Source: Curvibacter soli (GTDB lineage: Bacteria; Pseudomonadota; Gammaproteobacteria; Burkholderiales; Burkholderiaceae_C). Taken from it: DNA of 64,000 bases. The stretch spans positions 62,001-126,000 of the forward strand of contig NZ_JARGEN010000043.1 in NCBI RefSeq assembly GCF_029211125.1, read 5' to 3'. Made by a program: the position numbers and the translations under genes. Each line of letters starts with the position of its first letter. Positions within the stretch are counted from its first letter, which is position 1. A model generated the notes under the pieces. It had not been told where the DNA came from. It was given only the letters and a program-made list of their open reading frames with translations, and made no database searches. Positions 19,315 to 34,679 of this stretch are shown piece by piece.

Positions 19315-19998
19315 TCAGTGCGGGCGCTGCCCCCACACCCGCAGCAATTCCCCTGACTCCATCACCAGCCCCAGGTGCAGCGACACCATGGAAAGCGCCG
19401 CTGCCTCCAGCTTGTCATCCGTTCCCCGCACCAGGTCGCGCAGCACGATCACGCGGTAGTTGTGGTTGTTGGCGTCGAACGCGGTGCTGAGCACGCAGCA
19501 GTCGGTAAAGCCGCCGTCCAGCACCACGGTTTCGATGCGCTGGTTGCGCAGCAGGAAGTCCAGGTCGCTCGGGTAGAAGGCCGACAGGCGCCGCTTGGTG
19601 TCCACGCGCATGTCGCCGGGCTCCACGCGGGTGCGCCACTCGGTCCAGCGGCTGCCCTCGATGGCGTGGGCGTCGGCGTTGGGGATGGGCCCCACGTGCA
19701 GCGGGAAGGTGCGGCGCCACGCGGCGGGTATGCCGCGGATGTCGTCCTCGCCGTTCGCGCGCAGGGTGCTGCGCACGTGGATCAGGCGTACGCCCAGGGC
19801 GCGCACGCGGTCGTGAAAGGCGTCCAGCGGCGCCACCAAGTCGCGGGCGCGCGGCGCGGGGCAGGGGCAGTCGGGGCTGTCGTCGAGGTGGCCGCGGTGC
19901 ATGTCGATGGAGACGACCGCCGTGGTGGCGGGGTTCAGGTAGTCGGCGAACTCGGTTTCGCTCAGTTCGCGCGGCTGTTCGTACACATAGGCTTGCAT
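19315..19998 (-). CDS. Isochorismatase-family cysteine hydrolase
   Basis: A 227-residue cysteine hydrolase. It has the Asp of AVVSIDMHRGH near residue 34 and the nucleophile in DGGFTDCCVLSTAFDANNHN near residue 168, followed by YRVIVLRDLV. The family cleaves C-N bonds of ureido or amide compounds, as RutB does. It is the last gene of the seven-gene minus-strand operon with a nucleoside ABC transporter and starts 3 bp after the preceding permease stop. A role in hydrolysing a carbamoylated or ureido intermediate of an imported purine or pyrimidine is inferred from context only. It is distinct in sequence from the rutB copy at 29890-30642. Confidence 0.82.
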   Translation of the reverse strand: MQAYVYEQPRELSETEFADYLNPATTAVVSIDMHRGHLDDSPDCPCPAPRARDLVAPLDAFHDRVRALGVRLIHVRSTLRANGEDDIRGIPAAWRRTFPLHVGPIPNADAHAIEGSRWTEWRTRVEPGDMRVDTKRRLSAFYPSDLDFLLRNQRIETVVLDGGFTDCCVLSTAFDANNHNYRVIVLRDLVRGTDDKLEAAALSMVSLHLGLVMESGELLRVWGQRPH

Positions 19999-20001
19999 GG
20001 T

Positions 20002-20928
20002 TCAGCGCCTTTCCTCGCGCAGATAGGGTTCGCCCAAGGCGCCGGGCGTTTCGTCGCGCCCGCGCCGCGCCAGCGCCACCCACACCATGACGGCCAGGGT
20101 CACGGCGTAGGGCGTCATCAGCACGAAGTACTGCGGCAGGCTGATGCCGGCGGCGGCCAGTTGCGGTATCAGCGCCTCGATGCCGCCGAACAGCACCGCG
20201 CCCGCGAACGCGCGCCACGGCGACCAGCGCGCGAAGATCACCAGCCCCACGGCGATCCAGCCGCGCCCGCCGGTCATGCCGGCGATCCACAGCTTGGTGC
20301 TGATGACGGCGATGTACCCGCCCGCCAGCCCCACCAGCGCCGAGCCCGCCAGGATGGCCAGGAAGCGCGTGCGCAGCACCGGCACGCCCGCCGCGTCCGC
20401 CGCCTGCGGGTTCTCGCCCACGGCGCGCAGGCGCAGGCCGCCGCCCGCATGGTTGAGCCACCAGGCCACGCCCGCGAAGATGAACGGCGCAAGGTAGGCC
20501 GCCAGGCTCTGGTTGAACAGCCCGCCCACCACGGGCAGCGCGGCCAGCGGGCCCAGGGGCAGCGCCGCGGGGCCCATCACGGGCTGGTTGGTCCAGCCCA
20601 GCACGGTGCCCAGCAGGCCCGTCAGGCCCTGGCAGAAGAACACCAGCGCCAGCCCGGCGATGACCTGGTTCACGCGCAGCCACACCACCATCACGGCGAA
20701 CAGCACCGACACGGCGGCGGCGGCCAGCATCGCGGCGACGAGGGCGACGCCCGGTTCATGCACCGCCAGCATGGCGCCGATGCCCGCCAGCGCGCCCACC
20801 AGCATCAGCCCCTCGGCGCCCAGCGAGAGCACGCCCGCGCGCTCGCTGACGATGAGGCCCAGCGCCGCCAGCGCGAAGGGCACGGCGAAGTCGGGGATGT
20901 TGCCGATCCAGTGGGCGATCAGGTCCAT
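20002..20928 (-). CDS. BMP-type nucleoside ABC transporter, permease 2
   Basis: A 308-residue integral membrane protein with 8-9 hydrophobic helices. It belongs to the branched-chain/BPD_transp_2 permease family: SERAGVLSLGAEGLMLVGAL near residue 30 and RLRAVGENPQAADAAGVPV near residue 165 are diagnostic. It pairs with the permease encoded just upstream (3-bp gap) in an importer of the PnrA/NupABC kind, which takes up purine and pyrimidine nucleosides. Confidence 0.92.
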   Translation of the reverse strand: MDLIAHWIGNIPDFAVPFALAALGLIVSERAGVLSLGAEGLMLVGALAGIGAMLAVHEPGVALVAAMLAAAAVSVLFAVMVVWLRVNQVIAGLALVFFCQGLTGLLGTVLGWTNQPVMGPAALPLGPLAALPVVGGLFNQSLAAYLAPFIFAGVAWWLNHAGGGLRLRAVGENPQAADAAGVPVLRTRFLAILAGSALVGLAGGYIAVISTKLWIAGMTGGRGWIAVGLVIFARWSPWRAFAGAVLFGGIEALIPQLAAAGISLPQYFVLMTPYAVTLAVMVWVALARRGRDETPGALGEPYLREERR

Positions 20929-20931
20929 GGC

Positions 20932-22056
20932 TCAGTACGCGGCCACGCGGCGGATGCGGTGGCGGATGAAGAAGTCCGACGAGGCGACGCACACCACCAG
21001 GATGGCCTGTATGAGCTGCACCATCGAGAACGGTATCTGGTAGAACACCTGCAGGCTGCGCCCGGCCACGAACAGCGTGGCCACCAGGATGGCGACCACG
21101 CTGGCGGCCAGCGGGTTGTTGCGCGCCAAAAAGGCGATCAGGATGCCCGAGAAGCCGTAGCCCGCGTAGAACGCCTGCGTGAGCCGCCCTTCCTGCCCGG
21201 CAGCCACCATGAAGCCCGCCAGCCCCGCGAGCGCGCCCGAGGCCAGCACCGACGCCCACACCAGCTTCTTCACCGGCACGCCCACCGCGTCGGCCACGCG
21301 CGCGCTGGCGTGCACGAAGCGCAGGTACAGGCCCGCGCGGCTCTTGTCCACGAACCACCATGCGGCCACCGCCACCAGCAGTGCCAGCACGATGGCGCTG
21401 CTGAAGCCGTCCGCGATGTCGGGCAGCCGCTCGAACGGCGCGAACTTGGGCGAGTAGGGGAAGGAATCCCTGGGGTCCTTCCACGCGCCGTACACCAGGT
21501 GCAGCAGGAAGTTGGCCGCCACGTAGTTGAGCATCAGGCTGGAGATGATCTCGTTGATCGCCAGGCGCATCTTCAGCACGGCGGGCAGCACCACCCACAG
21601 CAGGCCGCAGAGCAGCGCGGCGCCCGCCATGAGCCACAGGCGCGCGGCCTGCGGCCCGATGGCGTGGATGGAAACGAAGGTGGCGCCGATGGCGCCGAAG
21701 ATCATCTGCCCCTCCAGCCCCAGGTTCCAGAACCGGGCGCGGAAGGCCAGCGCCGCGGCCAGCCCCACCATCACCATGGGCGCGGCCTGGAACAGCACGG
21801 CGCGCAGGTTCTGCGCGTCGAAGAAGGTCTGCACGATGAACTCGTCGAGCAGGTCCTCGGGCGACACGCCGGCGGCCACCAGAATGGCGCCGCTGACCAG
21901 CGCCCCCGCCAGCACCGCCAGCGCGAGGATCAGCGCCTGCCACGGCCAGGCGAGCTGCTGGCGCACCTCCAGCGCGTAGCGGCGCGCGAGCAGCGGCACG
22001 CGGCGCGGGCGCGGCGTGGCGGTTTCGGGAGCGGGGGGAATGGGGGCGGATGCCAT
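20932..22056 (-). CDS. BMP-type nucleoside ABC transporter, permease 1
   Basis: A 374-residue permease with an N-terminal cytoplasmic leader and about ten hydrophobic helices. RARFWNLGLEGQMIFGAIGA near residue 110 and AINEIISSLMLNYVAANFLL near residue 165 identify the family of NupB/YufP-like permeases. The coupling region is FVHASARVADAVGVPVKKLV. It begins 12 bp after the ATPase stop and is followed after 3 bp by the second permease, so all are in one transcript. The substrate is inferred to be nucleosides from the BMP/PnrA-type binding protein. Confidence 0.92.
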   Translation of the reverse strand: MASAPIPPAPETATPRPRRVPLLARRYALEVRQQLAWPWQALILALAVLAGALVSGAILVAAGVSPEDLLDEFIVQTFFDAQNLRAVLFQAAPMVMVGLAAALAFRARFWNLGLEGQMIFGAIGATFVSIHAIGPQAARLWLMAGAALLCGLLWVVLPAVLKMRLAINEIISSLMLNYVAANFLLHLVYGAWKDPRDSFPYSPKFAPFERLPDIADGFSSAIVLALLVAVAAWWFVDKSRAGLYLRFVHASARVADAVGVPVKKLVWASVLASGALAGLAGFMVAAGQEGRLTQAFYAGYGFSGILIAFLARNNPLAASVVAILVATLFVAGRSLQVFYQIPFSMVQLIQAILVVCVASSDFFIRHRIRRVAAY

Positions 22057-22068
22057 GTGCCAGAGGGG

Positions 22069-23679
22069 TCAGTGTGTCGCCACCATCGCCTGGCCAACGT
22101 CTTGCCGGCGCGCGGGCGCGGCGAACTCGGCCACGATGCGCCCGCGCACGATCACGCCCACGCGGTCGGCCAGCGCCAGCACTTCGTCGAGGTCTTCGCT
22201 GATCAGCAGCACGGCGGCGCCCGCGGCGCGCGCGGCGCGCAGGCGCGCATGCACCTGGGCGCTGGCGCGCACGTCCAGCCCGCGGCTCGGGCTGTGGGCC
22301 AGCACCAGCCGCGGCTGGCCGCCCAGGCGGCTGAATTCGCGTGCGATCACCAGCTTCTGCGCGTTGCCGCCCGACAGCAGCGCCGCTTTCTGGCGGATGG
22401 AGCGCACCCCCAGCACGTCGAAGGCCTTGACGGCCTCTTGCGCGGCGGCTTCCATGCGGCGGCGGTCGAGCCACGCGGCGCTGCCGTAGCGGCTGTCGTG
22501 TACCTGGCCGATGCCGAAGTTCTCGGCCACCGACAGGTCGCCCGCCAGCGCCAGCCCGTAGCGGTCGGCGGGAATGGCGGCAATGCCCAGCGCGCGCCGC
22601 TGCTCGGGGCTGGCCGCGCGCAGGTCGCCGAAGCCCTCCAGCTCCAGCGCGCCCTCGGCCAGCGGCAGCAGGCCCATGATGGCCTGCGCCAGCTCGCCCT
22701 GGCCGTTGCCGCCCACGCCGGCCAGGCCGTAGATCTCGCCGGCGCGCACCTCCAGCGTGGCACCGTCCAGCGCGGGCTGGCCCGCGCCCGCGCTGCGCAG
22801 GCCGCGCACGGCCAGGCGCACGGGGCACACGGCGGCACTGGCGGCACTGGCGGCGGCACTGGCGGCACTGGCGGCGGCACTGGCGGCGGCACTGGCGGCG
22901 GCACCGGCGGGCGTGGCGGCGCGCGGCGCCTCGGCCTGCGCGGTGTCGCCCACGGTCAGGCGCACCAGCTCGGCTTCGCTGGCCGCGCGCGGCTCCAGCG
23001 TGGCGACGGTGCGCCCGGCGCGCATCACGGTCACGCGGTCGGCGAACGCCTGCACGTCGGCCATCTTGTGCGTCACCAGCACCACCGCCGCGCCCTGCCG
23101 CGCCAGCGCGCGCACCGTGTGCAGCAGGCGCGCGGCCTCGGCATCCGTCAGCACGGCGGTGGGCTCGTCTAGGATGAGGATGCGCGCGCCGGCCAGCAGC
23201 ACCTTGAGGATTTCCACGCGCTGCTGCTCGGCCACCGACAGCCGCTCGATGCGCTGGCCGGGGTCGATGGCGAAGCCCAGCGCCTGCGCCTGCGCGGCGA
23301 CGGCGGCGCGCACCGCGGCCAGGCGGGCGCCGTAGCCCTGCGCGGCGTCGAACTCGCCGGGCGGCGGCAGGCCGAGCAGGATGTTCTCGGCCACCGTGAA
23401 CGGGGCCACGAGCTTGAAGTGCTGGTGCACCATGCCGATGCGGTGGCGCGCGGCGTCGCGCGGGCCGGCCAGGCGCACGGGGTTGTCGTCCACCAGCAGC
23501 GTGCCGGCCTCGGGCGCGTACAGGCCGGCGGCGATGTTCATCAGCGAGGACTTGCCCGCGCCGTTCTCGCCCAGCAGCGCGTGCACCTCGCCCCAGCGCG
23601 CTGCGAAGTGCGCGCCGTCTAGGGCCCGGAAGCCGTCGAAGCTCTTGTCGATGCCGTGCAGCGCCAGCGCGTCAGACAT
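22069..23679 (-). CDS. Nucleoside ABC transporter, double ATP-binding protein
   Basis: A 536-residue protein with two ABC domains, the layout of YufO/NupA. Domain 1 has Walker A GENGAGKSS near residue 40 and ILILDEPTAVL near residue 160. Domain 2 has the degenerate GVGGNGQGELAQ near residue 313 and the signature LLSGGNAQKLVIAREFSR. The linker (residues 252-280) is an almost pure Ala/Ser stretch built from GCGGCACTGGCG-type repeats on the plus strand, so its length may vary by slippage. The start was set at MSDALALHGIDKSF, the usual family beginning, rather than a longer frame. It follows the binding-protein gene by 123 bp. Confidence 0.93.
   Translation of the reverse strand: MSDALALHGIDKSFDGFRALDGAHFAARWGEVHALLGENGAGKSSLMNIAAGLYAPEAGTLLVDDNPVRLAGPRDAARHRIGMVHQHFKLVAPFTVAENILLGLPPPGEFDAAQGYGARLAAVRAAVAAQAQALGFAIDPGQRIERLSVAEQQRVEILKVLLAGARILILDEPTAVLTDAEAARLLHTVRALARQGAAVVLVTHKMADVQAFADRVTVMRAGRTVATLEPRAASEAELVRLTVGDTAQAEAPRAATPAGAAASAAASAAASAASAAASAASAAVCPVRLAVRGLRSAGAGQPALDGATLEVRAGEIYGLAGVGGNGQGELAQAIMGLLPLAEGALELEGFGDLRAASPEQRRALGIAAIPADRYGLALAGDLSVAENFGIGQVHDSRYGSAAWLDRRRMEAAAQEAVKAFDVLGVRSIRQKAALLSGGNAQKLVIAREFSRLGGQPRLVLAHSPSRGLDVRASAQVHARLRAARAAGAAVLLISEDLDEVLALADRVGVIVRGRIVAEFAAPARRQDVGQAMVATH
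22836..22916. repeat. In-frame GGCACTGGCGGC microsatellite coding for an Ala/Ser linker
   Basis: Units GGCACTGGC and GGCGGCACTGGC alternate several times. On the minus strand they encode Ala-Ala-Ser and Ala-Ala-Ala-Ser. All units are multiples of three bases, so gain or loss changes linker length without a frameshift. Confidence 0.85.
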
Positions 23680-23802: not shown

Positions 23803-24924
23803 TCACTTCTGCGTCACCACGCCCTTGACGAACCAGTCCATCTTCCAGAGGTCGGCGTCGCTCAGCACGGCGCCCGCGGCCACGCGCTCCTTGCCGTCGC
23901 GGTCGGCCAGCGGGCCGGCGTAGACCGGCTTGCCCTTCATGATCGCGTCGCGCTCGGCCAGGATGGCGGCCTGCTTGTCCTTGGGGATCTGCGCGCCGAG
24001 CTTGGAGATGTCGGTGCCGCCGTCCTGCATCTCGATGAAGGCGCCGTAGGGCTGGGGCTTCCAGTGGCCGGCCATGATCTTCTTCAGCTCGGGCACCAGG
24101 AAGCGGTCCCACACCCACACCGACGAGCAGATGGTGGCCTTGGGCGCGAACTGGCTCAGGTCGCGGTGGTGGCCGGTGCCGAGCTTGCCGCGCTCCTGCG
24201 CCACGATCTGCGGCGTGGGCGAATCGACGTGCTGGCCGATCACGTCGGCGCCCTGGTCGATCAGCGCGGCGGCGGCGGCGCGCTCCTTCACCGGGTCGTT
24301 CCACGAGCCGGTGTAGATCACCGTCACGGTGGCGGCGGGGTTCATCTTCTGCGCGCCGAGCGCGTAGGCGTTGATGGTCCAGTTGACCACGCCGAACGGG
24401 TTGGCCGCCACGAAGCCGAGCTTGCCCGTCTTGCTCGCCGCGCCCGCGGCCATGCCGCACAGGTACTGGCTTTCATAGGTGCGGCCATAGAACGATTCGA
24501 GGTTCTTGCCGTTGGTGGTGCCCGAGCCGTTGAGGAAGGCCACGTCGGGGTATTTGTCGGCCAGCTCCTTGAACGCGTCGGAATAGCCGAAGGCGGTGCC
24601 GATCACGATGTTGGCGCCGCGCTGGATGAACTTCTCCGCCGCGGGCTTGATGGCGGATGCGTCCTCGGGCACGCCTTCTACGAACTGGATTTTCTGGCCG
24701 AGGGCTTTTTCGACCTTCACGCGCGCTTCGTCGAACGCCTGGGTCCAGCCGCCGTCGTTCTTGGGGCCGAAGTAGATCATCGCGATCTTGGGCGGGCCCT
24801 TGAGCGTGAAGCCGTCGTCGGCGGCATGCGCGGGCGCGTGGAAGACGGCCGCGCCCAGCAGGGCCAGGCCGGCGGCGGATGCCACGACGGCCTTGCGGCG
24901 GGGCAGTGAGTGGAATGCTTGCAT
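23803..24924 (-). CDS. BMP-family (PnrA-like) nucleoside-binding protein
   Basis: A 373-residue periplasmic binding protein. A signal peptide (RRKAVVASAAGLALLGAAVF to AHA near residue 31) precedes the BMP domain: PKIAMIYFGPKNDGGWTQAF near residue 40, NIVIGTAFGYSDAFKELADK and LGFVAANPFGVVNWTINAYA. Residues near WTQAF and the DVIGQHVDSP segment line the base pocket in this family. The ATG at 24924 was chosen because of a GAGGTAA ribosome site 5 bp upstream; the open frame extends further but only into repeated DNA. The gene precedes its ATPase and permeases, as in other Bmp operons. Confidence 0.93.
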   Translation of the reverse strand: MQAFHSLPRRKAVVASAAGLALLGAAVFHAPAHAADDGFTLKGPPKIAMIYFGPKNDGGWTQAFDEARVKVEKALGQKIQFVEGVPEDASAIKPAAEKFIQRGANIVIGTAFGYSDAFKELADKYPDVAFLNGSGTTNGKNLESFYGRTYESQYLCGMAAGAASKTGKLGFVAANPFGVVNWTINAYALGAQKMNPAATVTVIYTGSWNDPVKERAAAAALIDQGADVIGQHVDSPTPQIVAQERGKLGTGHHRDLSQFAPKATICSSVWVWDRFLVPELKKIMAGHWKPQPYGAFIEMQDGGTDISKLGAQIPKDKQAAILAERDAIMKGKPVYAGPLADRDGKERVAAGAVLSDADLWKMDWFVKGVVTQK

Positions 24925-24956: not shown

Positions 24957-25072
24957 GGGGAGCGTGGGGGTCATGCTTCATCGCCGGGCCGCCCCAAGAT
25001 GAAACGCGGCCCCCACGGGGGGCAGCGAACCACACGCAGTGGGGAGCGTGGGGGTCATGCTTCATCGCCGGG
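24957..25072. repeat. 32-bp direct repeats flanking a family D fragment
   Basis: The sequence GGGGAGCGTGGGGGTCATGC plus 12 more bases occurs at 24957-24988 and again, identically, at 25041-25072. The second copy includes the last codons of the VOC gene (PGDEA and stop). The 52 bp between them (cgcggcccccacggggggca, then cacacgcagtgg) resembles part of the family D repeat. Confidence 0.85.
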
Positions 25073-25456
25073 CATCATGAAGTTGATGCGCAGCACATTG
25101 CCTTCGGGGTCGAACAGCACGGCCTGGTACCAGTGGTAGTAGGTGTCGTAGGGCGGCTTGACCAGCGTGGCGCCGGCGGCCACGGCCACGGGCACCATGC
25201 GGTCCACGTCGGCGCGGCTGTCCACGTCGATGTTGAGCAGGAACTTGATGCCGCGCGTGTCGGCGAATGCGCTCAGGTGCAGCAGGTCGTAGGCCTCGTG
25301 GGCATTGAAGCCGATGCAGCTTTTGCCCGTGTCGAGCCCGCGGAAGATCGGCGAGCGGATGGCCTCGATCTCGGGAAAGCCGAACACCCCCTGGTAGAAG
25401 CCGCTGAGCGCGACGATGTCCTTGGCGAAGACGTTGACGTAGGAAAGGGTTGCCAT
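25055..25456 (-). CDS. VOC (glyoxalase/dioxygenase-fold) protein
   Basis: A 133-residue protein with two beta-alpha-beta-beta-beta units: MATLSYVNVFAKDIVALSGF at the start and DTYYHWYQAVLFDPEGNVLR near the end. The Tyr/His and Glu positions expected for metal binding are partly present (HWYQA, DPEGN). The family contains lyases, isomerases, extradiol dioxygenases and binding proteins, so the reaction cannot be named. It lies 18 bp after the 2OG oxygenase stop in the same operon, which suggests it handles a product of that oxygenase. Its 3-prime end is part of the 32-bp direct repeat. Confidence 0.85.
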   Translation of the reverse strand: MATLSYVNVFAKDIVALSGFYQGVFGFPEIEAIRSPIFRGLDTGKSCIGFNAHEAYDLLHLSAFADTRGIKFLLNIDVDSRADVDRMVPVAVAAGATLVKPPYDTYYHWYQAVLFDPEGNVLRINFMMPGDEA

Positions 25457-25474
25457 GGGTGCGCCGCGCTCCTT

Positions 25475-26479
25475 TCAGGCGGTGGCCGTGCCGCCGAGCG
25501 TGGTCTGCTTGACGAACTTGGATTTCAGGTGGTCGCCCGAGCTGATCGGCGCGTACCGGGGTTTCTCGCCGGGCGCCAGGCAGCTCGGCAGGCATTCGAC
25601 CATCGCGTCGTAGTTGGGCTGGTGGAAGAACACCAGCGACTGGCGGCGCGTGTTGCGGGCCGCGTCGTCAAGGGGCGGGTTGGCCACCCGGTGCAGCGTG
25701 GAGACCCAGGTGTCGTTGGTCCACTGCATCATCAGGTCGGCGATGTTCACCACGAAGCTGCCGGGCACCATGGGCACGTCCACCCACTGGCCCGCCTTGT
25801 TGAACACCTGCAGGCCCGGGCCGTCGGGCAGCACGATGGTCAGGCTGCCGTAGTCGCTGTGCGCGCCCGCGCGCATCTGGCCCGGCAGCGGCGCCTCGCG
25901 CTGCGGCGGGTAGCTCAGCACGCGCAACATGCTGATGTGCTCGTCGATCTTGTCGTCGAAAAACTTCTCGGGCAGGGCGAGCGCGAGCGCGAAGATGCGC
26001 ATCAGGGAGCGCGCCAGGCCGCTCATGGCGTCGAAGTATTCGGTGTACGCCGCACGGAAATCCGGGATGCCCTCGGGCCAGGAGTTGGGCTCGAAGTGCG
26101 GGCCGGCGGCCTCGCCGCGGTGGTATTCGTCGTCGGGCACGTTCGACGGGCCGATGGAGAACGACTCCTTCAGGTCGGGCGGCGCCACTGCCTCCAGGCT
26201 GTACGACAGCCCTTCCTCGCCCACGGCGGAAAAGCCGCGCACGGCGTCGATGCGCGGGCGGTCCACCTTGCGCTTCTCGGCCAGCGGCAGGGCGAAGAAC
26301 TGCTGCGATGCCTTCGCCACGCGCTCGACCAGGACGGCGGGAATCTGGTGGCTGGTGATGACCAGGAAGCCGATGTCGCGGCAGGCGTCGCCCACCGCGC
26401 GGGCGACGGCGGCCTTGCCTTCGGGCGTGCCCGCGAAGTAGGGCTGCAGGTCGATGACGGGAACATTCAATGCGGGCAT
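25475..26479 (-). CDS. 2-oxoglutarate/Fe(II) oxygenase, isopenicillin N synthase-like
   Basis: A 334-residue protein. The N-terminal DIOX_N domain (VPVIDLQPYFAGTPEGKAAV, GFLVITSHQIP) precedes the double-stranded beta-helix. Fe ligands are visible as H and D in AGAHSDYGSLTIV (about residues 207 and 209) and H in STLHRVANPP (about 261); the 2-oxoglutarate-binding Arg is in NTRRQSLVFFHQ (about 280). Catalysis should therefore be intact. It has GGAG upstream and heads the operon with the nucleoside transporter, divergent from rutR. Related enzymes hydroxylate small molecules, including thymine 7-hydroxylase of fungi. Oxidation of a pyrimidine base or nucleoside is my inference from context and the RutR-like operator upstream. 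Confidence 0.88.
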   Translation of the reverse strand: MPALNVPVIDLQPYFAGTPEGKAAVARAVGDACRDIGFLVITSHQIPAVLVERVAKASQQFFALPLAEKRKVDRPRIDAVRGFSAVGEEGLSYSLEAVAPPDLKESFSIGPSNVPDDEYHRGEAAGPHFEPNSWPEGIPDFRAAYTEYFDAMSGLARSLMRIFALALALPEKFFDDKIDEHISMLRVLSYPPQREAPLPGQMRAGAHSDYGSLTIVLPDGPGLQVFNKAGQWVDVPMVPGSFVVNIADLMMQWTNDTWVSTLHRVANPPLDDAARNTRRQSLVFFHQPNYDAMVECLPSCLAPGEKPRYAPISSGDHLKSKFVKQTTLGGTATA

Positions 26480-26550: not shown

Positions 26551-26566
26551 TGGACCAATTGGACAA
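26551..26566. promoter_or_regulatory. RutR-like operator in the rutR / oxygenase-operon intergenic region
   Basis: TGGACCAATTGGACAA matches 12 of the 14 specified bases of the Escherichia coli RutR consensus TTGACCA-N2-TGGTCAA. It lies 72 bp upstream of the oxygenase start and 171 bp upstream of rutR, so RutR could control both directions. A very similar site precedes the rut operon at 31923-31938. Confidence 0.65.
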
Positions 26567-26737
26567 ATCTGTTTTCCGCGCCGCGCCGCGCCGCTCTGGT
26601 GCGCGGCACGCGCATGATTCGTGCATGGCCCCCGCCCGCAGGTGCGCCGCATGTGCGATGTGTGTGCGCGAACGGCTCCGTGTGGCAGCATGCCCGCCGC
26701 CAGCATCCACGAAAAAGAACGCAAAGGAAGCATCCCC

Positions 26738-27466
26738 ATGCCCGCCCCGATCGCCCGCAAGACCCTGGCCGGAAAGAAGAAGGACAAGGCCCTTGCCGCC
26801 GCCCCGGCCCGCCGGGCCGCGCGCGGCCCGGCGGCGGGGCGCCGTGTGCGCCAGGTGGAGGACAAGCGCAGCGCCATCCTGGGCGCGGCGCTGGGGCTGT
26901 TCTCGCGCTACGGCCTGCATGGCACCACGGTGGACCAGGTGGCCGCGCGCGCGGCGGTATCCAAGAGCAACCTGCTGTACTACTTCGCCAACAAGGAGGA
27001 GCTGTACGTGAGCGTGCTGCGCGACCTGCTGGAAGTGTGGCTGGCGCCGCTGCGCAGCTTCAGCGCCGAACAGGACCCGCGCGCGGCGATCGCCGCCTAC
27101 ATCCGCGCCAAGCTCGTCATCTCGCGCGACCGGCCCGACGCCTCGCGCCTGTTCTGCCTGGAGATGATCCAGGGCGCGCCGCTGCTGCGCGACGAACTGG
27201 CGCGCGAGCTGCGCGACCTGGTGGATCACAAGTCGGAGGTCATCCGCGCCTGGGTGGCCGATGGCCGGCTCGCGCCCGTGGAGCCGCACCACCTGGTGTT
27301 CGCGCTCTGGGCCACCACCCAGCACTACGCCGACTTCGCGGTGCAGGTGCAGGCGCTGACGGGCCGCACGCTCGACGACCCGGCGTTCTTCGAGCAGACG
27401 GTGGAGAACGTGCAGCGCATCGTGCTCGACGGCATCGCCGCGCAGGCCGATGGCGGTCCGGTATGA
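26738..27466 (+). CDS. rutR: TetR-family pyrimidine-utilisation regulator RutR
   Basis: A 242-residue regulator. A basic, Ala-rich N-terminal extension of about 40 residues precedes the TetR helix-turn-helix (LFSRYGLHGTTVDQVAARAA, SKSNLLYYFANKEELY). The ligand domain follows RutR of E. coli closely: LLEVWLAPLRSF, RPDASRLFCLEMIQGAPLL, TTQHYADFAVQVQALTG and TVENVQRIVLDGIA. RutR binds uracil or thymine and then releases DNA. ATG at 26738 was chosen because of AAAGGAAG just upstream; longer frames read through promoter DNA. It is divergent from the oxygenase/transporter operon, and the rutABCDF operon begins 4.3 kb away. Confidence 0.95.
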   Translation: MPAPIARKTLAGKKKDKALAAAPARRAARGPAAGRRVRQVEDKRSAILGAALGLFSRYGLHGTTVDQVAARAAVSKSNLLYYFANKEELYVSVLRDLLEVWLAPLRSFSAEQDPRAAIAAYIRAKLVISRDRPDASRLFCLEMIQGAPLLRDELARELRDLVDHKSEVIRAWVADGRLAPVEPHHLVFALWATTQHYADFAVQVQALTGRTLDDPAFFEQTVENVQRIVLDGIAAQADGGPV

Positions 27467-27483: not shown

Positions 27484-27785
27484 TCAGTGCGCGTGCCAGT
27501 TCACCCACTGGAGGGCCGGCACGCGCGAGAACTCGCGCTCGTTGCGCGTCACCAATGTCGCGCCATGGGCGCGTACCGTGCCGGCGATCAACACATCGTG
27601 CGGGCCGATGGGCAGGCCGCGCGATTCCAGTTCGGCGCGGATGGCCGCGGCTTCATGCGCGCCGGCCGCGTCGAACGGCAGGATGCGCAGGGCCGCAGCA
27701 GCGTGTCGAGCGCCTGCCGGCGGGGCGCGACCTGCGGGTCGCCGCGGAAGTAGTAGCTGATGGTGTTGGCGTCGAGTGCCAGCAT
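27484..27785 (-). pseudogene. Decayed VapC toxin (frameshift and internal deletion)
   Basis: The start overlaps the antitoxin stop (TGATG). The first frame gives MLALDANTISYYFRGDPQVA to about residue 31. After RQALDTLLRP the reading must shift by one base (near 27695) to continue as LRILPFDAAGAHEAAAIRAE and then GPHDVLIAGTVRAHGATLVT, NEREFSRVPALQWVNWHAH, stop. Together the pieces give about 100 residues, against about 130 in intact homologues. The missing block is the segment that normally carries the catalytic Glu. The toxin should be inactive. Convergent with rutR, 17 bp apart. Confidence 0.8.
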
Positions 27786-28012
27786 CAGAACCCGGCCCTG
27801 GACACGTCGGCGGCGGGCGGCGGTGCATCCTCGCGCAGCGGAAAGTCGGCAAAGCTGCCGGCCAGCCCGATCACCTGCGCGGGCCAGCGCTGCTCGGCGG
27901 CATCGCGGATCAGGTCCGCTACCCAGCGGCTGTCGGATACGCCCGCGGCCTGCGCCTGGGCACGCATGAGGGCGTCGGTTTCATCGTCCAGATAAAGCGT
28001 GACTTGCGACAT
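27785..28012 (-). CDS. Ribbon-helix-helix antitoxin
   Basis: A 75-residue CopG/RHH-type protein: SQVTLYLDDETDALMRAQAQ supplies the strand and first helix, and GVSDSRWVADLIRDAAEQRW the second. The C-terminal tail (FPLREDAPPPAADVSRAGF) is the expected toxin-neutralising part. ATG at 28012 follows GGAGGCTCC. An ACATATA/TATATGT palindrome 42 bp upstream is a likely operator. The partner toxin is broken, so the antitoxin may survive as a solitary repressor. Confidence 0.8.
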   Translation of the reverse strand: MSQVTLYLDDETDALMRAQAQAAGVSDSRWVADLIRDAAEQRWPAQVIGLAGSFADFPLREDAPPPAADVSRAGF

Positions 28013-28053
28013 GGAGCCTCCTGGCGGAAGGCGGGCCGCCGCGGGCGACCCGG

Positions 28054-28073
28054 ACATATATGAAAGTATATGT
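28054..28073. promoter_or_regulatory. Inverted repeat upstream of the RHH antitoxin
   Basis: ACATATA (28054-28060) and TATATGT (28067-28073) form a perfect 7-bp dyad with a 6-bp spacer in otherwise GC-rich DNA. Its position between the rutF stop and the antitoxin start fits an RHH operator/promoter. Confidence 0.55.
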
Positions 28074-28097
28074 GCCGTGCACTGGCGGCGCACGCGG

Positions 28098-28616
28098 TCA
28101 GCGCATCGCCGTGGGCAGAGCGTGGTAGCGCCGCTCGAAGTACACCAGCGCATGGGCGGCCTCGCCCACGGTGACGGCGAGCACCGCGCAGAACATCACC
28201 TCGTGCGTGCCGACCACGCTGCGCTGCGCGATGCGGCAGTCGAACGACGCGGCGGCGTCCAGCAGCACGGGCGCGCCGCCCAGGCCCGTGGCCCAGCGGC
28301 CGGCGGCGAAGCGCTCGTCCATCGGCGTCCTGCCGCCGAACAGGTCGGCGAGCGCCTGCTGGTGCGCGCCCAGCGCGTTCACGCACAGCGCCTCGTTGGC
28401 CGCGAACGCGGGGTAGACCGAGGCGGCGCGGTTCAGGCACACCAGCAGCGTGGGCGGCTCGTCGCTCACGCTGCACACGGCCGATGCGGTGAAGCCCGCG
28501 CGGCCGCCGGGCCCGTCGGTGGTGACGACGTGCACCGCCGCGCCGATGCGCGCCATGGCGTCGCGGAAATCGCGCTTGGCCAGCGCGGCGCGGCGCGGCT
28601 CCACGGCGCTGCTCAT
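28098..28616 (-). CDS. rutF: FMN reductase of the Rut pathway
   Basis: A 172-residue flavin reductase of the HpaC/RutF group that supplies reduced FMN to RutA. The motifs [40 protein letters not shown] and [20 protein letters not shown] are typical of the split-barrel fold, with the GxH near the end as [11 protein letters not shown]. Start overlaps the rutD stop (ATGA at 28616-28613), so the two are co-translated. It is the last gene of the rut operon here. Confidence 0.93.
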
Positions 28617-29434
28617 GGGCGCGCGACGGTCTTGGCCTGCACGGCCAGGAAGGCCAGCAGCGCCTGGTTGAAAGGCTCGGCCTCGGTCACGCTGTGGGCG
28701 TGGCCGCCGTGCGGCACGCGCTCCAGCGCGGCGTTGGGCAGGCGCTGCGCGAGCCGCTGCGACATGGTCCAGGGCACCAGCGTGTCGTCCATCGCGGTCA
28801 TCACCAGCGTGGGCGCGGCGATGTCGCCCAGGCGCGCGTCCACGTCGAAGGCGCGCAGCGCGGCGATGCGTGAACGCATCGTGGCCTCGCCGGGGAAGTG
28901 CGCGAAGGCATGGCGCACCTCGTCGGCCACGTGCTGCGCGTGGGCGGCGCACCAGGCGGCGGGGTAGAGGAAGATGGGCTGCGCTTCCACATAGGCGCGC
29001 ACGCCGCGCTGGCCGCCCAGGCCGAGCAGGGAAAGCCGCGTGTCGAAGCAGCGCGCCGAATGCGGGTTGGGCATGGACCAGGCGTTGACCAGCGCGAGGC
29101 TGGCGATGCGCTCGGGCGCATCGAGCGCGAGTTGCAGTCCGACCAGGCCGCCGAGCGCATGGCCGACGAGGTGGCAGCGCGCGGTGTGCGTGGCGTCGAG
29201 GATTTCGGCCACGTCCTGCGCCATGTGGTCGATGCTGTAGGGCGATGGCAGCAGGCCGGGGCTGCGCCCGGTGCCGCGCTGGTCGTAGGCGATGACGCGC
29301 AGGCCGACTTCGGCCAGGGCGGGGATCTGGGGCTTCCAGAAACCCGCGCTGCCGCCCAGGCCCGAGGACAGCAGCACGGTGTGCGCCGCCTCGGGAGGGC
29401 CGTAGATGTCGAAAGCCAGTGTCGTCGCTGCCAT
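28613..29434 (-). CDS. rutD: Aminoacrylate hydrolase-type alpha/beta hydrolase RutD
   Basis: A 273-residue protein very close in motif order to E. coli Rut[31 protein letters not shown], the elbow [20 protein letters not shown] in which Ala replaces the usual Ser, [28 protein letters not shown] and [13 protein letters not shown]. RutD speeds decay of aminoacrylate to malonic semialdehyde and ammonia. The nucleophile change is also seen in the E. coli protein (VVGHALG). The gene lies 28 bp after rutC and overlaps rutF. Confidence 0.95.
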
Positions 29435-29462
29435 CGTCGGGGCCTTGTCGCGCGGAGTGCGT

Positions 29463-29852
29463 CTACTTCTTGCCGATGTGGGCGATGGAGGCGATTTCCA
29501 CCAGCGCGTCGGGCTTGACCAGGTTGGCCTCGATGCAATAGCGCGCGGGCTTCACGCCGGGAAAGAACTCGGCGTAGACGGCGTTGACCTTCGGGTAGTC
29601 GGCAAAGTCCTTCACGAAGATGTGGTTGAAAGTCACGTCGTCCATGGTGCCGCCGGCGGCCTCGACCACGCCCCGGATGGTTTCCAGCACGTGGCGGGTC
29701 TGCGCGCTGGCATCGCCCGCGTGGACCACGTTGTTGTCCTTGTCGAACGGCAGCGTGCCCGAGACGTAGAGGATGCCGTCGGCCAGCGTGCCGGGCACGT
29801 AGGGGGCGAGCGGCACGCCGGTGCCGGGCGGGATGATGGCTTGCTTGGGCAT
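29463..29852 (-). CDS. rutC: RidA-family aminoacrylate deaminase-type protein RutC
   Basis: A 129-residue YjgF/RidA-fold trimeric enzyme. [20 protein letters not shown] at the start, [20 protein letters not shown], and [17 protein letters not shown] at the end match RutC. The conserved Arg of RidA proteins that binds the carboxylate is in [14 protein letters not shown] near residue 106. It deaminates 3-aminoacrylate. ATG at 29852 has GGAGCTTCCCC upstream. It lies between rutB and rutD on the same strand. Confidence 0.94.
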
Positions 29853-29889
29853 GGGGAAGCTCCTGTGGGGGGCAGGGTGGAAGAAAACG

Positions 29890-30642
29890 TCAGGCCACGG
29901 TGGTGCAGAACGCATCGACGCTCGACACCCAGCCGAAGAAGGTTTCGATGTTGTAGAGGGCCGCCTGCTGGATCGCCGGGCCGCCGAGCTCGTGCGTGGC
30001 GTCTTCGAGCACGACGCCGAAGTATTCGAGGTGGAAGGCGTCGCGCAGCGTCGATTCCACGCACACGTTGGTGGCGATGCCGGTGAACACCAGGTTGCGG
30101 ATGCCGCGCGCGGCCAGGGTGGAATGCAGCGTGCTGTTGAAGAAGCCGCTGTAGCGCGTCTTGGGCACCACGATGTCGCCGGGCTGGGGCTGCATGGCGT
30201 CGATCAGCGCGTAGTCCCAGCCGCCCTTGGCCAGGAACCTGCCCTGCAGTTCGGGCTGCCGGCGCATGGTCTTCAGCGCGTTGGACTTGTACCAGTTGGG
30301 TGAGCCGGGGCCGCCCGCCTCCACGTACTGCGCGTCCCAGCCGTTTTGCAGGAACACGACCAGGATGCCCGCCTTGCGCGCGGCCTCGATGGCGCGCACG
30401 ATGCCCGCGATGGTGGCCTGCGCGCCCGAGATGTCGAAGCCCGCGGTGTCCACGTAGCCGCCGAGCGTGGCGTAGGCGTTCTGCATGTCCACCACCACCA
30501 GGGCGGTGTTGCCGCCGTGCAAGGCCAGCGGCTCGGGCCGCGCAGGCAGTACCAGCGGTGCGGGGCCGCCCGGCGGCGTGGGCACGCCCACGGGCGTGGT
30601 GGAGATGAGGGTGGCGTTCGTCTTGGCGCCGTGGGTCGTCAT
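29890..30642 (-). CDS. rutB: Ureidoacrylate amidohydrolase RutB
   Basis: A 250-residue isochorismatase-family hydrolase. [20 protein letters not shown] gives the catalytic Asp near residue 60, [20 protein letters not shown] the catalytic Lys near residue 153, and [20 protein letters not shown] the nucleophile Cys near residue 194. The product is aminoacrylate plus carbamate. The start [13 protein letters not shown] was chosen because GGGCCCGCGCC and an AAAGGG block precede it and because it leaves 13 bp after rutA. A longer frame overlaps rutA. Confidence 0.95.
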
Positions 30643-30655
30643 GGCGCGGGCCCTT

Positions 30656-31774
<1,119 letters not shown>

Positions 31775-31938: not shown

Positions 31939-32095
31939 AATTGGAGCGCACCGGCCCGGGCGGCGTCACGCGGGTGGTGCAGGGGGAACGGTATCGGTGC
32001 GCGCGGGGCGGATGAGGGTGTGGTGGGGCCGCGCGCCCAACGCCACCCATGCCTTGCAGGGTGGCAATTCAGGAAAAATGGCCCTGGCGCTTTAC

Positions 32096-32330
32096 CCTGG
32101 AAACAGCAGTTGACCGCTTTGCATCCCTTGCCAGGCCGCAGGCAATCGAGCGTTGACGGCTTCGATGGCGTTCACCTCGTGGGTGAGGGCGCCATGCACC
32201 TGCCAGCACCGCGCTCGGCGCGCCATGCGGCGTTGCTCCTCCTTGCGGGCAGCAAGCCCGCCGCGTCGCCCGGTCTTGCCTGGCACTCCGATCACGGCAC
32301 CGGCAGGCGCATCCAACTGCCGTTTCCAGG
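32096..32330 (-). mobile_element. Family A MITE-like element, copy A3 (full length)
   Basis: Runs from CCTGGAAACAGCAGTTGA to CAACTGCCGTTTCCAGG, 235 bp, with imperfect terminal inverted repeats of 17-18 bp and no coding capacity. It is the reverse complement of A4 along its whole length. Its right end lies 42 bp beyond the oxidase stop. Confidence 0.8.
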
Positions 32331-32372
32331 TTACCCGTGGGCGGCAGATGAAATCGATGGTGCGCGCCACGT

Positions 32373-33812
32373 TCACAGCGCGAAAATCTTGCCCGGGTTC
32401 ATGATGTTCAGCGGGTCGAGCGCGCGCTTGATCGTGCGCATCACCGCCACCGCGCCCGCGCCGGCTTCTTCCACCAGGAAGCCCATCTTGTGCAGGCCGA
32501 TGCCGTGTTCGCCGGTGCAGGTGCCGCCCAGGCGCAGCGCGTGCGCCACCAGGCGGTGGTTCAGCGTCTCGGCGGTGGCGCGTTCCTGCCCGGAGTCGGG
32601 GTCGATCAGGTAGCCCATGTGGAAGTTGCCGTCGCCCACGTGGCCGACCAGGAAGTAGGGCAGGCCGGCGGCGTTGGCTTCCTCCACGGCGGCCAGCACC
32701 GCCTCGGCCAGCGCGGAGATCGGCACGCACACGTCGGTGGTCACGGCGCGGCAGCCGGGGCGCGACTGCACGCCGGCGAAGTAGGCGTTGTGCCGCGCCG
32801 CCCACAGCCGCGTGCGCTCCTCGGGCGTGGTGGCCCACGCGAAGGCGCCTTCCTTGACGTTCACGCCATGTTCGGCGGCGATGTCCTGCACGGCGCGCGC
32901 CTGCTCCTGCACGCCAGCGGGCGTGCCATGGAATTCCATCAGCAGCATCGGCTCCTCGCGCAGGCCCAGGTGCGAATGCGCGTTGACCATGCGCACGGTG
33001 CTGGCGTCCAGCAGTTCCACGCGCGCGATCGGCACGCCGAGCTGGATGGTCTCGATGACGGTGCGCACGGCAGCGCCGATGTCAGGAAACGAGCAGACAG
33101 CGGCGGACACCGCTTCTGGCAGCGGGTACAGGCGCAGCGTGACCTCGGTGGTGACGCCCAGCGTGCCCTCGCTGCCCACGAACAGGCGCGTGAGGTCGTA
33201 GCCCGCGCTGCTCTTCCTCGCGCGCGTGCCGGTGCGGATCGTCTCGCCGCTGGCGGTCACCACTTCGAGCGCCAGCACGTTGTCGCGCATGGTGCCGTAG
33301 CGCACGGCGTTGGTGCCGCTGGCGCGCGTGGCCGCCATGCCGCCGATGGAGGCGTCGGCGCCGGGGTCGATCGGGAAGAACAGCCCGCTGTGCTTGATCT
33401 CCTCGTTGAGCTGCTTGCGCGTCATGCCCGGCTGCACGGTGACCATGAGGTCGTCCGCGGCGAGCGAGACGATCTTGTTCATGCGGCCCATGTCGATGCT
33501 GATGCCGCCCTGCACGGCAAGCAACTGGCCCTCGATGGACGAGCCCGCGCCGTAGGGGATCACGGGCACCGCGTATTGCGCGGCCAGCCGCACGGCGTCG
33601 ACCACGTCCGGCGTGCTTTCGGCAAACACCACGGCGGCGGGCGGCGGCACGGCGAAGGGCGATTCGTCGCGGCCATGCTGCTCGCGCACGGCCTGCACGG
33701 TGGAGAGCTGCGCGCCGCCGAAGCGCTCGTGCAGCGCGTCGAGCAGCGCCTGCGGCACGGGGCGCTGCCGGACTTCGGGTACCAAGTGGGCAGGGTCGGC
33801 AGGGGCGTTCAT
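32373..33812 (-). CDS. FAD-linked oxidase, D-lactate/glycolate dehydrogenase (GlcD) family
   Basis: A 479-residue protein of the PCMH/VAO type. The FAD-binding segment VPVIPYGAGSSIEGQLLAVQ is near residue 83, then GLFFPIDPGADASIGGMAAT and TRLFVGSEGTLGVTTEVTLR. The C-terminal catalytic domain has LPYFLVGHVGDGNFHMGYLI, CTGEHGIGLHKMGFL and LDPLNIMNPGKIF. The family oxidises 2-hydroxyacids such as D-lactate, passing electrons to quinone or cytochrome; the exact substrate is not decidable. ATG at 33812 (MNAPADPAHL) was chosen; an ATG 30 bp upstream adds a weak extension. It and the EF-hand gene lie between two inverted family A elements. Confidence 0.9.
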   Translation of the reverse strand: MNAPADPAHLVPEVRQRPVPQALLDALHERFGGAQLSTVQAVREQHGRDESPFAVPPPAAVVFAESTPDVVDAVRLAAQYAVPVIPYGAGSSIEGQLLAVQGGISIDMGRMNKIVSLAADDLMVTVQPGMTRKQLNEEIKHSGLFFPIDPGADASIGGMAATRASGTNAVRYGTMRDNVLALEVVTASGETIRTGTRARKSSAGYDLTRLFVGSEGTLGVTTEVTLRLYPLPEAVSAAVCSFPDIGAAVRTVIETIQLGVPIARVELLDASTVRMVNAHSHLGLREEPMLLMEFHGTPAGVQEQARAVQDIAAEHGVNVKEGAFAWATTPEERTRLWAARHNAYFAGVQSRPGCRAVTTDVCVPISALAEAVLAAVEEANAAGLPYFLVGHVGDGNFHMGYLIDPDSGQERATAETLNHRLVAHALRLGGTCTGEHGIGLHKMGFLVEEAGAGAVAVMRTIKRALDPLNIMNPGKIFAL

Positions 33813-34190: not shown

Positions 34191-34216
34191 GGGCGGTTTC
34201 CATGGGATGCGTTGAA

Positions 34217-34450
34217 CCTGGAACCGGCAGTTGGATGCGCCTGCCGGTGCCGTGATCGGGGGGCCAGGCAAGGCGCGACGACGCGGCGGGCTACTGCCCG
34301 CAAGGAGGAGCAACGCCGCATGGCGCGCCGAGCGCGGTGCTGGCAGGTGCATAGCGCTCTCACCCACGAGGTGAACCCCATCGAAGCCGGCAACGCTCGA
34401 TTTCATGCGGCCTGACAAGGGATACGAAGCGGTCAACTGCCGTTTCCAGG
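34217..34450 (+). mobile_element. Family A MITE-like element, copy A4 (full length)
   Basis: CCTGGAACCGGCAGTTGG at the left, TCAACTGCCGTTTCCAGG at the right, 234 bp, in inverse orientation to A3. The interior includes cgcaaggaggagcaacgccg and the small hairpin TCACC-cacga-GGTGA. The left end is 27 bp upstream of the EF-hand start, so the element may carry or displace that gene's promoter. Confidence 0.8.
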
Positions 34451-34679
34451 TTGAACACCGGAGCATTGCAACCCGACCCGCCGGCTGCGGCCAAGCACTT
34501 TTGCCGGGTGTTGCCGCGCTGACATGCGCATTGCCTTGGAAACAAATGCTTGCGCGGCGGGCCCGCCGCCGGGCAGCGCCGCCGCCAATCAAGTCACGAC
34601 TCCCGCAAGACGGGGTTCCGGCGAGACGCCCGTCCTTTGGGCGCAACGGCTGGCCCAGCCTGGTTTGCGCAAGCCCAGA

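Follow-up and report, generated by a model that had tools for sequence, protein, structure and literature searches.

A putative oxygenase, VOC and base-importer module linked to pyrimidine use beside the rut genes of Curvibacter soli

The stretch of Curvibacter soli DNA analysed here (64,000 nucleotides; NCBI RefSeq assembly GCF_029211125.1, contig NZ_JARGEN010000043.1, positions 62,001 to 126,000 of the forward strand; hereafter the window) carries a gene for a 2-oxoglutarate (2OG)/Fe(II) oxygenase, here called OXY, at the head of a transport operon next to the rut genes. OXY probably supplies the leading enzyme of an accessory module to the Rut pathway, which RutR would control and which would import and oxidise a pyrimidine base. 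The link of the oxidative step to pyrimidine use is well supported by gene linkage, RutR-type boxes and co-occurrence with rutA. A preliminary description of this DNA had tied the oxygenase to pyrimidines, and these lines of evidence agree with it, as does the nearest solved structure, thymine 7-hydroxylase (T7H).

In the route that we propose, RutR would release the OXY operon when a pyrimidine base is present, as the predicted boxes suggest, and the BMP-type ABC transporter would import a planar free base, a ligand suggested by its solved relatives and by a two-tryptophan sandwich in the binding protein. OXY, whose chemistry is read from its fold and its intact Fe/2OG residues, would oxidise the imported base with 2-oxoglutarate and O2, presumably helped by the adjoining VOC protein as a ligand-binding protein. 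The product would be uracil, thymine or a compound that can be opened by RutA and the module's own cysteine hydrolase (ISO), and it would enter rutABCDF or a URC-type uracil cluster. The roles given to VOC and ISO are predicted ones, as are the substrate and the reaction, which is most likely of a type that oxidises a ring methyl group. The features of the locus are as follows.

25475..26479, minus strand: OXY, 2-oxoglutarate/Fe(II) oxygenase of the DIOX_N + 2OG-FeII_Oxy (isopenicillin-N-synthase-like) superfamily, 334 amino acids (Pfam)
25055..25456, minus strand: VOC, glyoxalase/bleomycin-resistance-fold protein, 133 amino acids (Pfam; 2rbb match 3.9e-64)
23803..24924, minus strand: BMP/PnrA-type substrate-binding protein of an ABC importer (Pfam Bmp 6.3e-47; AtzT 6pi5 4.2e-68)
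22069..23679, minus strand: ABC transporter ATPase with two ABC domains (Pfam ABC_tran, two stretches)
20932..22056, minus strand: ABC permease 1 (open reading frame in the operon)
20002..20928, minus strand: ABC permease 2 (open reading frame in the operon)
19315..19998, minus strand: ISO, isochorismatase-superfamily cysteine hydrolase (Pfam Isochorismatase 4.5e-27)
26551..26566, minus strand: RutR-like 16-bp palindrome TTGTCCAATTGGTCCA, 71 nt before the OXY start codon, between OXY and rutR
26690..27466, plus strand: rutR, TetR-family pyrimidine regulator (TetR_C_3 7e-57); start uncertain, GTG at 26621 also possible
30656..31774, minus strand: rutA, pyrimidine monooxygenase (TIGR03612 691.8 bits, over cut-off)
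29890..30642, minus strand: rutB, ureidoacrylate amidohydrolase (TIGR03614 395.9 bits, over cut-off)
29463..29852, minus strand: rutC, RidA-like (named by position and sequence, not by a hidden Markov model)
28613..29434, minus strand: rutD (TIGR03611 334.4 bits, over cut-off)
28098..28616, minus strand: rutF, FMN reductase (TIGR03615 254.8 bits, just over the cut-off of 254.75)

The OXY and VOC reading frames are both intact and lie exactly where they had been placed in the preliminary description, and the gene order that it gave, with this pair at the head of the BMP transporter operon and divergent from rutR, was also confirmed: OXY is followed on the minus strand by VOC, BMP, the ABC ATPase, the two permeases and ISO. 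The ATG of OXY is preceded by AAGGAG at five bases, and a gap of 18 bases separates OXY from VOC. RutR scored above the cut-off of PRK15008 (301 bits, cut-off 230) and below that of TIGR03613 (315 bits, cut-off 368). The rut operon (rutF, D, C, B and A) occupies 28098 to 31774 on the minus strand, and the end of its last gene lies 0.6 kb past rutR. In comparison with the Rut pathway of Escherichia coli (rutA-G, RutR), the locus shares rutABCDF, RutR and RutR-like 16-bp boxes, but has in addition OXY, VOC, the ABC importer with its BMP protein and another cysteine hydrolase; no rutE lies between rutD and rutF, and the genome has no RutG-type NCS2 permease.

Conservation of the module, linkage to rut and RutR-type boxes

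Relatives of OXY were collected by scanning genome contigs with a five-sequence profile, and the best 80 of the 221 encoding stretches were taken as orthologs; they came from Comamonadaceae, Burkholderiaceae, Pseudomonadaceae, one Oceanobacter and some unplaced bins. Genes around them were called by tblastn with the window proteins as queries (E<=1e-30). A VOC gene follows OXY in 78 of the 80 loci, both misses being contig ends, and because of this recurrence the pairing is more than chance. In 66 loci the flanks were almost complete, reaching at least 9.9 kb upstream of OXY and 9 kb downstream; here VOC and BMP were present in all 66, the ATPase and permease 1 in 65 each, permease 2 in 64 and ISO in 49.

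A rutA or rutR gene lies nearby in 58 of these 66 loci, and in 70 of the 80 orthologs overall. The three common architectures that link OXY to rut are rutA-F with divergent rutR and then OXY (48 loci), rutR then OXY (11) and rutF then OXY (5); the remaining loci have rutR without rutA-F on the sequenced piece (4), two singleton arrangements, or no rut gene within the flank (10). At one locus (L173) the module is split, with OXY divergent from rutA and VOC-BMP-ATP separately divergent from rutR, each part having its own box. As the architectures differ in this way, the link between OXY and rut is not one frozen inherited gene order. Some OXY cassettes stand alone, away from rut; for the ten orthologs without a nearby rut gene, a profile search found RutA over its cut-off elsewhere in seven of the genomes and split in two pieces in one, and found none over the cut-off in the other two.

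Co-occurrence was determined in 200 genomes of the family, with thresholds of E<=1e-110 for OXY and E<=1e-130 for RutA. This level was chosen because close OXY orthologs are rare at order level, where matches at E<=1e-50 were found in 27 of 300 genomes and identity reached at least 60% in 3 of the 37 places listed; among plasmid records, 1 of the 110 matching ones (Tistrella) reached at least 60%. Within the family OXY was found in 11 genomes, rutA in 11 and both in 10 (Fisher 5e-15, a value that overstates independence because the genomes are related and the genes often linked). The exceptions were G333, with RutA only, and G415, with an OXY homolog of 56% identity and no RutA.

A RutR box is described in PMC10891134 as a palindrome of about 16 bp, and the title of a paper cited there calls RutR uracil/thymine-sensing. 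The palindrome at 26551-26566 is the sole match in the window at one mismatch or fewer, with no mismatch itself, against 0.30 expected and a match in 23 of 100 shuffles, the pattern having been written after the site had been seen. For the orthologs, a score was taken over 12 fixed positions of the E. coli RutR consensus, in the exact letters that we take it to have, and a hit was defined as at least 10 positions within 350 bp upstream of a gene. Such a box precedes OXY in 62 of the 80 orthologs as compared with 1.4% of 1600 dinucleotide shuffles, a threshold that is not specific alone because the control upstream of rutD, where the match is a different sequence within conserved coding DNA, reaches it in 33 of 47. 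It was found before rutA in 31 of 60, before BMP in 1 of 77 and before the ATPase in 0 of 76. At a score of at least 11 the counts were 54 of 80 for OXY, 26 of 60 for rutA, 7 of 47 for rutD and none for BMP or the ATPase; the distances to genes in these counts were taken from where the tblastn match begins and are approximate, most so for rutA. The box is also kept before OXY at three loci without a nearby rut gene (L116, L117 and L121) and at one (L175) whose rutA lies on another contig.

Elsewhere in the Curvibacter soli genome a perfect palindrome, TTGACCATCTGGTCAA, precedes a GTP-cyclohydrolase-II-like (URC1-like) gene, a DUF1688 gene and upp, in support of pyrimidine genes being under RutR control there. 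This cluster (G000:C33:712-4138, L149) is of the URC type for uracil, and the genome has uracil genes of both the Rut and the URC type.

Enzyme class, partner proteins and the imported ligand

OXY matches the Pfam families DIOX_N (96.8 bits, cut-off 27.3; 1.7e-27) and 2OG-FeII_Oxy (66.6 bits, cut-off 23; 2.7e-18). In an alignment of 81 sequences, the window protein and its 80 orthologs, the Fe/2OG residues H207, D209, H263, R279, S281 and Y190 are invariant, which bears out the full HxD...H...R set (H207, D209, H263, R279) noticed earlier. In a Foldseek search with its AlphaFold2 model (mean pLDDT 85.8, pTM 0.88) the top eleven matches were all T7H chains, and on structural re-alignment T7H 5c3p came first (Z 38.7, 300 residues, 1.8 A, 34% identity), followed by a putative Caulobacter oxygenase (Z 37.3). 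By sequence, T7H is the second-best match in PDB (4.6e-46); the top match, the ancestral ethylene-forming enzyme Anc357 (9ovh, 1.6e-51), is named for another reaction and ranks structurally below T7H.

In the T7H structures, as described in PMC4787775, F292 and Y217 stack on either side of thymine, with R190 close by, and N87, E122 and N294 make direct or water-mediated contacts with it. The equivalents of F292, Y217 and R190 in OXY are F285, Y210 and R186, each present in 81 of 81 sequences. Other relatives share these residues widely: of 42 rows compared, one of them T7H, all have Phe at the F292 position, 39 have Arg at R190 and 31 have Tyr at Y217, with Trp or Phe in the rest. OXY thus has in common with T7H of Neurospora crassa (PDB 5c3p-5c3s) the fold, the Fe ligands, the 2OG residues and these three positions, but it differs in the replacement of N87, E122 and N294, in what appears to be a separate clade and in that its gene belongs to a transport operon of a bacterium, behind a RutR-type box. 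In a tree of 41 rows T7H falls outside the 15-row clade of rut-linked OXY proteins (support 100/99), its branch being long and the root arbitrary.

A second 2OG oxygenase, about 30-33% identical, was seen after the module at L070:17241-20985 (with another ABC importer), inside it at L065:12571-13572 and just before it at L138:8964-9929, which suggests a two-oxygenase pathway in some species.

The VOC protein (Pfam Glyoxalase 2.7e-9) has no invariant His in 11 aligned sequences, and its usual terminal Glu position is Arg123, the metal-ligand positions being those that we take from general VOC motifs. It is likely a ligand-binding partner of OXY. Its structure model has a mean pLDDT of 71.5 and matches drug-binding VOC proteins among others, a hint only, because the model is poor. 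The VOC fold is shared with the mitomycin-resistance protein 1kmz, a drug-binding VOC protein, and with a close homolog from Burkholderia phytofirmans (2rbb, 73% identity in the structure alignment), whose title names no function, whereas the gene here is paired with that of a 2OG oxygenase. ISO keeps the catalytic set of its superfamily, with D32 in 52 of 53 sequences (one gap) and K135 and C168 in all 53. By score it is neither RutB nor biuret hydrolase, both values lying far below the cut-offs of the NCBIfam equivalogs (RutB, 38 bits against 378, 1.3e-9; BiuH, 59 against 370, 3.7e-16).

The preliminary description had the importer carry nucleosides; this was not supported here, and a base is probably the better term. 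The best solved relatives of BMP hold free bases, namely AtzT with guanine (4.2e-68) and the Brucella BMP 3s99 with adenine modelled (1.6e-54), while TmpC (2fqw, 1.3e-6) and BmpD (6shu, 1.2e-9), which with PnrA we take to be nucleoside binders, are far behind; a strict nucleoside importer was therefore rejected from sequence. When the AtzT pocket positions given in PMC6834077 were mapped on BMP, Trp was found at both aromatic sandwich positions and A111, H232 and D234 at guanine-contact positions, in 78 of 78 sequences. BMP thus resembles AtzT (6pi5) and 3s99 in sequence and in the aromatic sandwich of a planar ring, and 3s99 also in having H and D where AtzT has N218 and N220, but it differs from AtzT in five contact residues (S97, E165, N169, N218 and N220 becoming A, V/Q, T, H and D) and in the GCDAD stretch, which reads GHHRD. 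The BMPs of purine-type or neighbouring clusters (L060, L057) keep S97, E165, N169 and N218, and share with the window BMP the change of N220 to D and a Trp at Y45. A planar base other than guanine would fit this pocket best; an adenine-like base may be the ligand, and a nucleoside appears less likely.

The importer as a mere replacement of RutG was also rejected, as a match to the RutG model at E<=1e-10 was obtained in 23 of the 25 genomes that have the cassette or rutA; none of these matches passes the model's cut-off, which E. coli does not pass either. No NCS2 permease of the RutG type was matched in the Curvibacter soli genome itself.

Some more distant relatives of OXY are also paired with a VOC gene. 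At 19 loci with an OXY homolog, taken from the 37 places listed at order level, a VOC gene adjoins in 7. One such distant pair (L060) has as neighbours a Rieske protein of the VanA_C type, genes resembling those for adenosine deaminase and guanine deaminase, and a BMP whose residues are AtzT-like, two others (L045, L052) lie with xanthine-dehydrogenase-like genes, and a fourth (L051) with an NMT1-like binding protein and a Rieske protein; several of these gene names were given by reading the sequence.

Substrate of the module and competing explanations

A number of observations weigh against a pyrimidine module under RutR control, besides the rutD control and the relatedness behind the Fisher value. 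No box at the threshold of 10 precedes OXY in 18 of the 80 orthologs, including 7 of the 10 cassettes without a nearby rut gene, and the window's own rutA has none at one mismatch or fewer. L116 has its box, yet its genome has no RutA over the cut-off, and the pattern is not rare genome-wide, occurring at five places in the 3.36 Mb Curvibacter soli genome as compared with four for a backward-read control. One OXY ortholog of 63% identity (L043) sits in a Rieske/RidA/amidohydrolase cluster; rut genes are absent from the 20 kb of this locus and from the 31 kb of the Tistrella one. A purine ligand is compatible with the BMP pocket, because the purine-cluster BMPs share the change of N220 to D and the Trp, and the adenine-modelled 3s99 the H and D. 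In OXY, N87 and N294 of T7H are replaced by V80 and Q287, both invariant in 81 of 81 sequences, and E122 by His or Tyr at 120 (pairwise alignment) or by Ser (multiple alignment). A search of the Curvibacter soli genome for Amidohydro_2 gave only two partial matches, of 37.8 and 28.5 bits against a cut-off of 26.4, and with no convincing iso-orotate decarboxylase among them a full route from thymine to uracil looks incomplete.

With these points taken into account, the RutR-controlled accessory module remains the probable explanation. In a more specific and tentative form, it would be an oxidative front end of Rut, in which a dedicated importer takes up free pyrimidines that are methylated or modified in another way and OXY with VOC makes Rut substrates of them, as one branch of a broader oxygenase and VOC family that would act likewise on purines in other clusters. 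Thymine is the leading single substrate, still a tentative choice, and N-methylated pyrimidines, which one turnover would make into a Rut substrate, are the next candidates, on somewhat more doubtful ground. The two explanations that take these substrates strictly are special cases of the accessory-module reading.

The first is a strict thymine 7-hydroxylase, by which thymine would pass through 5-hydroxymethyl-, 5-formyl- and 5-carboxyuracil and be decarboxylated to uracil for Rut. It is a possible though doubtful explanation. Thymine is abundant, T7H is the best structural and the second-best PDB sequence match of OXY, the equivalents of R190, Y217 and F292 are kept, and RutR is called uracil/thymine-sensing in the paper title mentioned with PMC10891134. 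These three residues, however, discriminate little across the 42 rows, and the replaced contacts, the position of T7H outside the OXY clade (though on a long branch) and the two weak Amidohydro_2 matches speak against it. Thymine, which the preliminary description had offered as an example, stands as leading candidate, and the same contacts, clade and seemingly incomplete decarboxylation step tell against taking it as settled.

By the second, OXY would hydroxylate the N-methyl group of a pyrimidine base, formaldehyde would leave, and uracil (or cytosine or thymine) would go to Rut, the distant pairs acting likewise on methylpurines next to enzymes that resemble Rieske demethylases. Such an N-demethylase, which we regard as rather doubtful, would give a Rut substrate in one turnover without a decarboxylase, and it agrees with the distant OXY and VOC pairs beside the Rieske VanA_C and deaminase-like genes (L060) and the xanthine-dehydrogenase-like genes (L045, L052); the functions of those clusters are themselves predicted, and free N-methyl pyrimidines are not known to be abundant.

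It is unlikely that the module acts on a different N-heterocycle and has no more than its regulation or its location in common with rut. This explanation draws on the cassettes that stand alone and on L043, where OXY-VOC-BMP occurs together with Rieske genes like those of anthranilate dioxygenase and a regulator that reads as GntR-like, but RutR-type boxes are found at some cassettes away from rut, and OXY and rutA occur together in 10 genomes, of 11 and 11. The preliminary description had named conserved linkage to an unrelated pathway as evidence against a pyrimidine role; such linkage was not found for most orthologs, but one, L043, lies in a Rieske-dioxygenase cluster without rut. In that locus (L043:2004-7461, genome G097) OXY-VOC-BMP is followed by alpha/beta hydrolase, amidohydrolase and RidA protein genes and by Rieske alpha/beta genes of the anthranilate-dioxygenase-like kind, which may open the ring of the same substrate by another route.

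Least likely is a nucleoside oxygenase, in which OXY would act on C1' or C2' of the sugar in a pyrimidine nucleoside or deoxynucleoside and so release the base, as 2OG enzymes described for fungi do: no IU_nuc_hydro nucleoside hydrolase was found in the Curvibacter soli genome (phosphorylases were not searched for), and a relative in Rhizobium johnstonii pRL12 (L063) adjoins carbohydrate kinase and pseudouridine-5'-phosphate glycosidase genes, with a nucleoside hydrolase about 5 kb away, but its identity is only 42%, the ABC importer that follows it gave no BMP match, and the close solved relatives of the window BMP hold free bases.

Significance and neighbouring sequence

The module hints at an uncharacterised side branch of pyrimidine breakdown. 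If the accessory-module reading is true, the Rut pathway would gain a second, oxygenase-driven entry point and its diet would be widened to modified pyrimidines, and OXY would be the first enzyme known to us in bacteria that corresponds to the thymine/pyrimidine 2OG oxygenases of fungi. A role open to testing would also follow for the VOC protein, whose relative 2rbb has had a released structure since 2007 with no function in its title, and for the recurring oxygenase and VOC gene pair. No description of the OXY-VOC-importer module was found in the open-licence PubMed Central papers searched, as judged from titles and the beginnings of abstracts; a curated collection of regulons may already have this transporter as a RutR target, and the module would then be less novel.

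Within the window, the two halves of the ABC ATPase are joined by a Ser/Ala-rich repeat linker (22757-22890), and the long open reading frames in other frames over it look spurious. Between rutR and rutF (27484-28153) there are small open reading frames that resemble, by eye, a ribbon-helix-helix antitoxin and a PIN-domain toxin. Beyond the rut operon, an inverted repeat of about 240 bp (32091-32332 and 34215-34455, 91-93% complementary) flanks an FAD-linked oxidase gene at 32373-33812.

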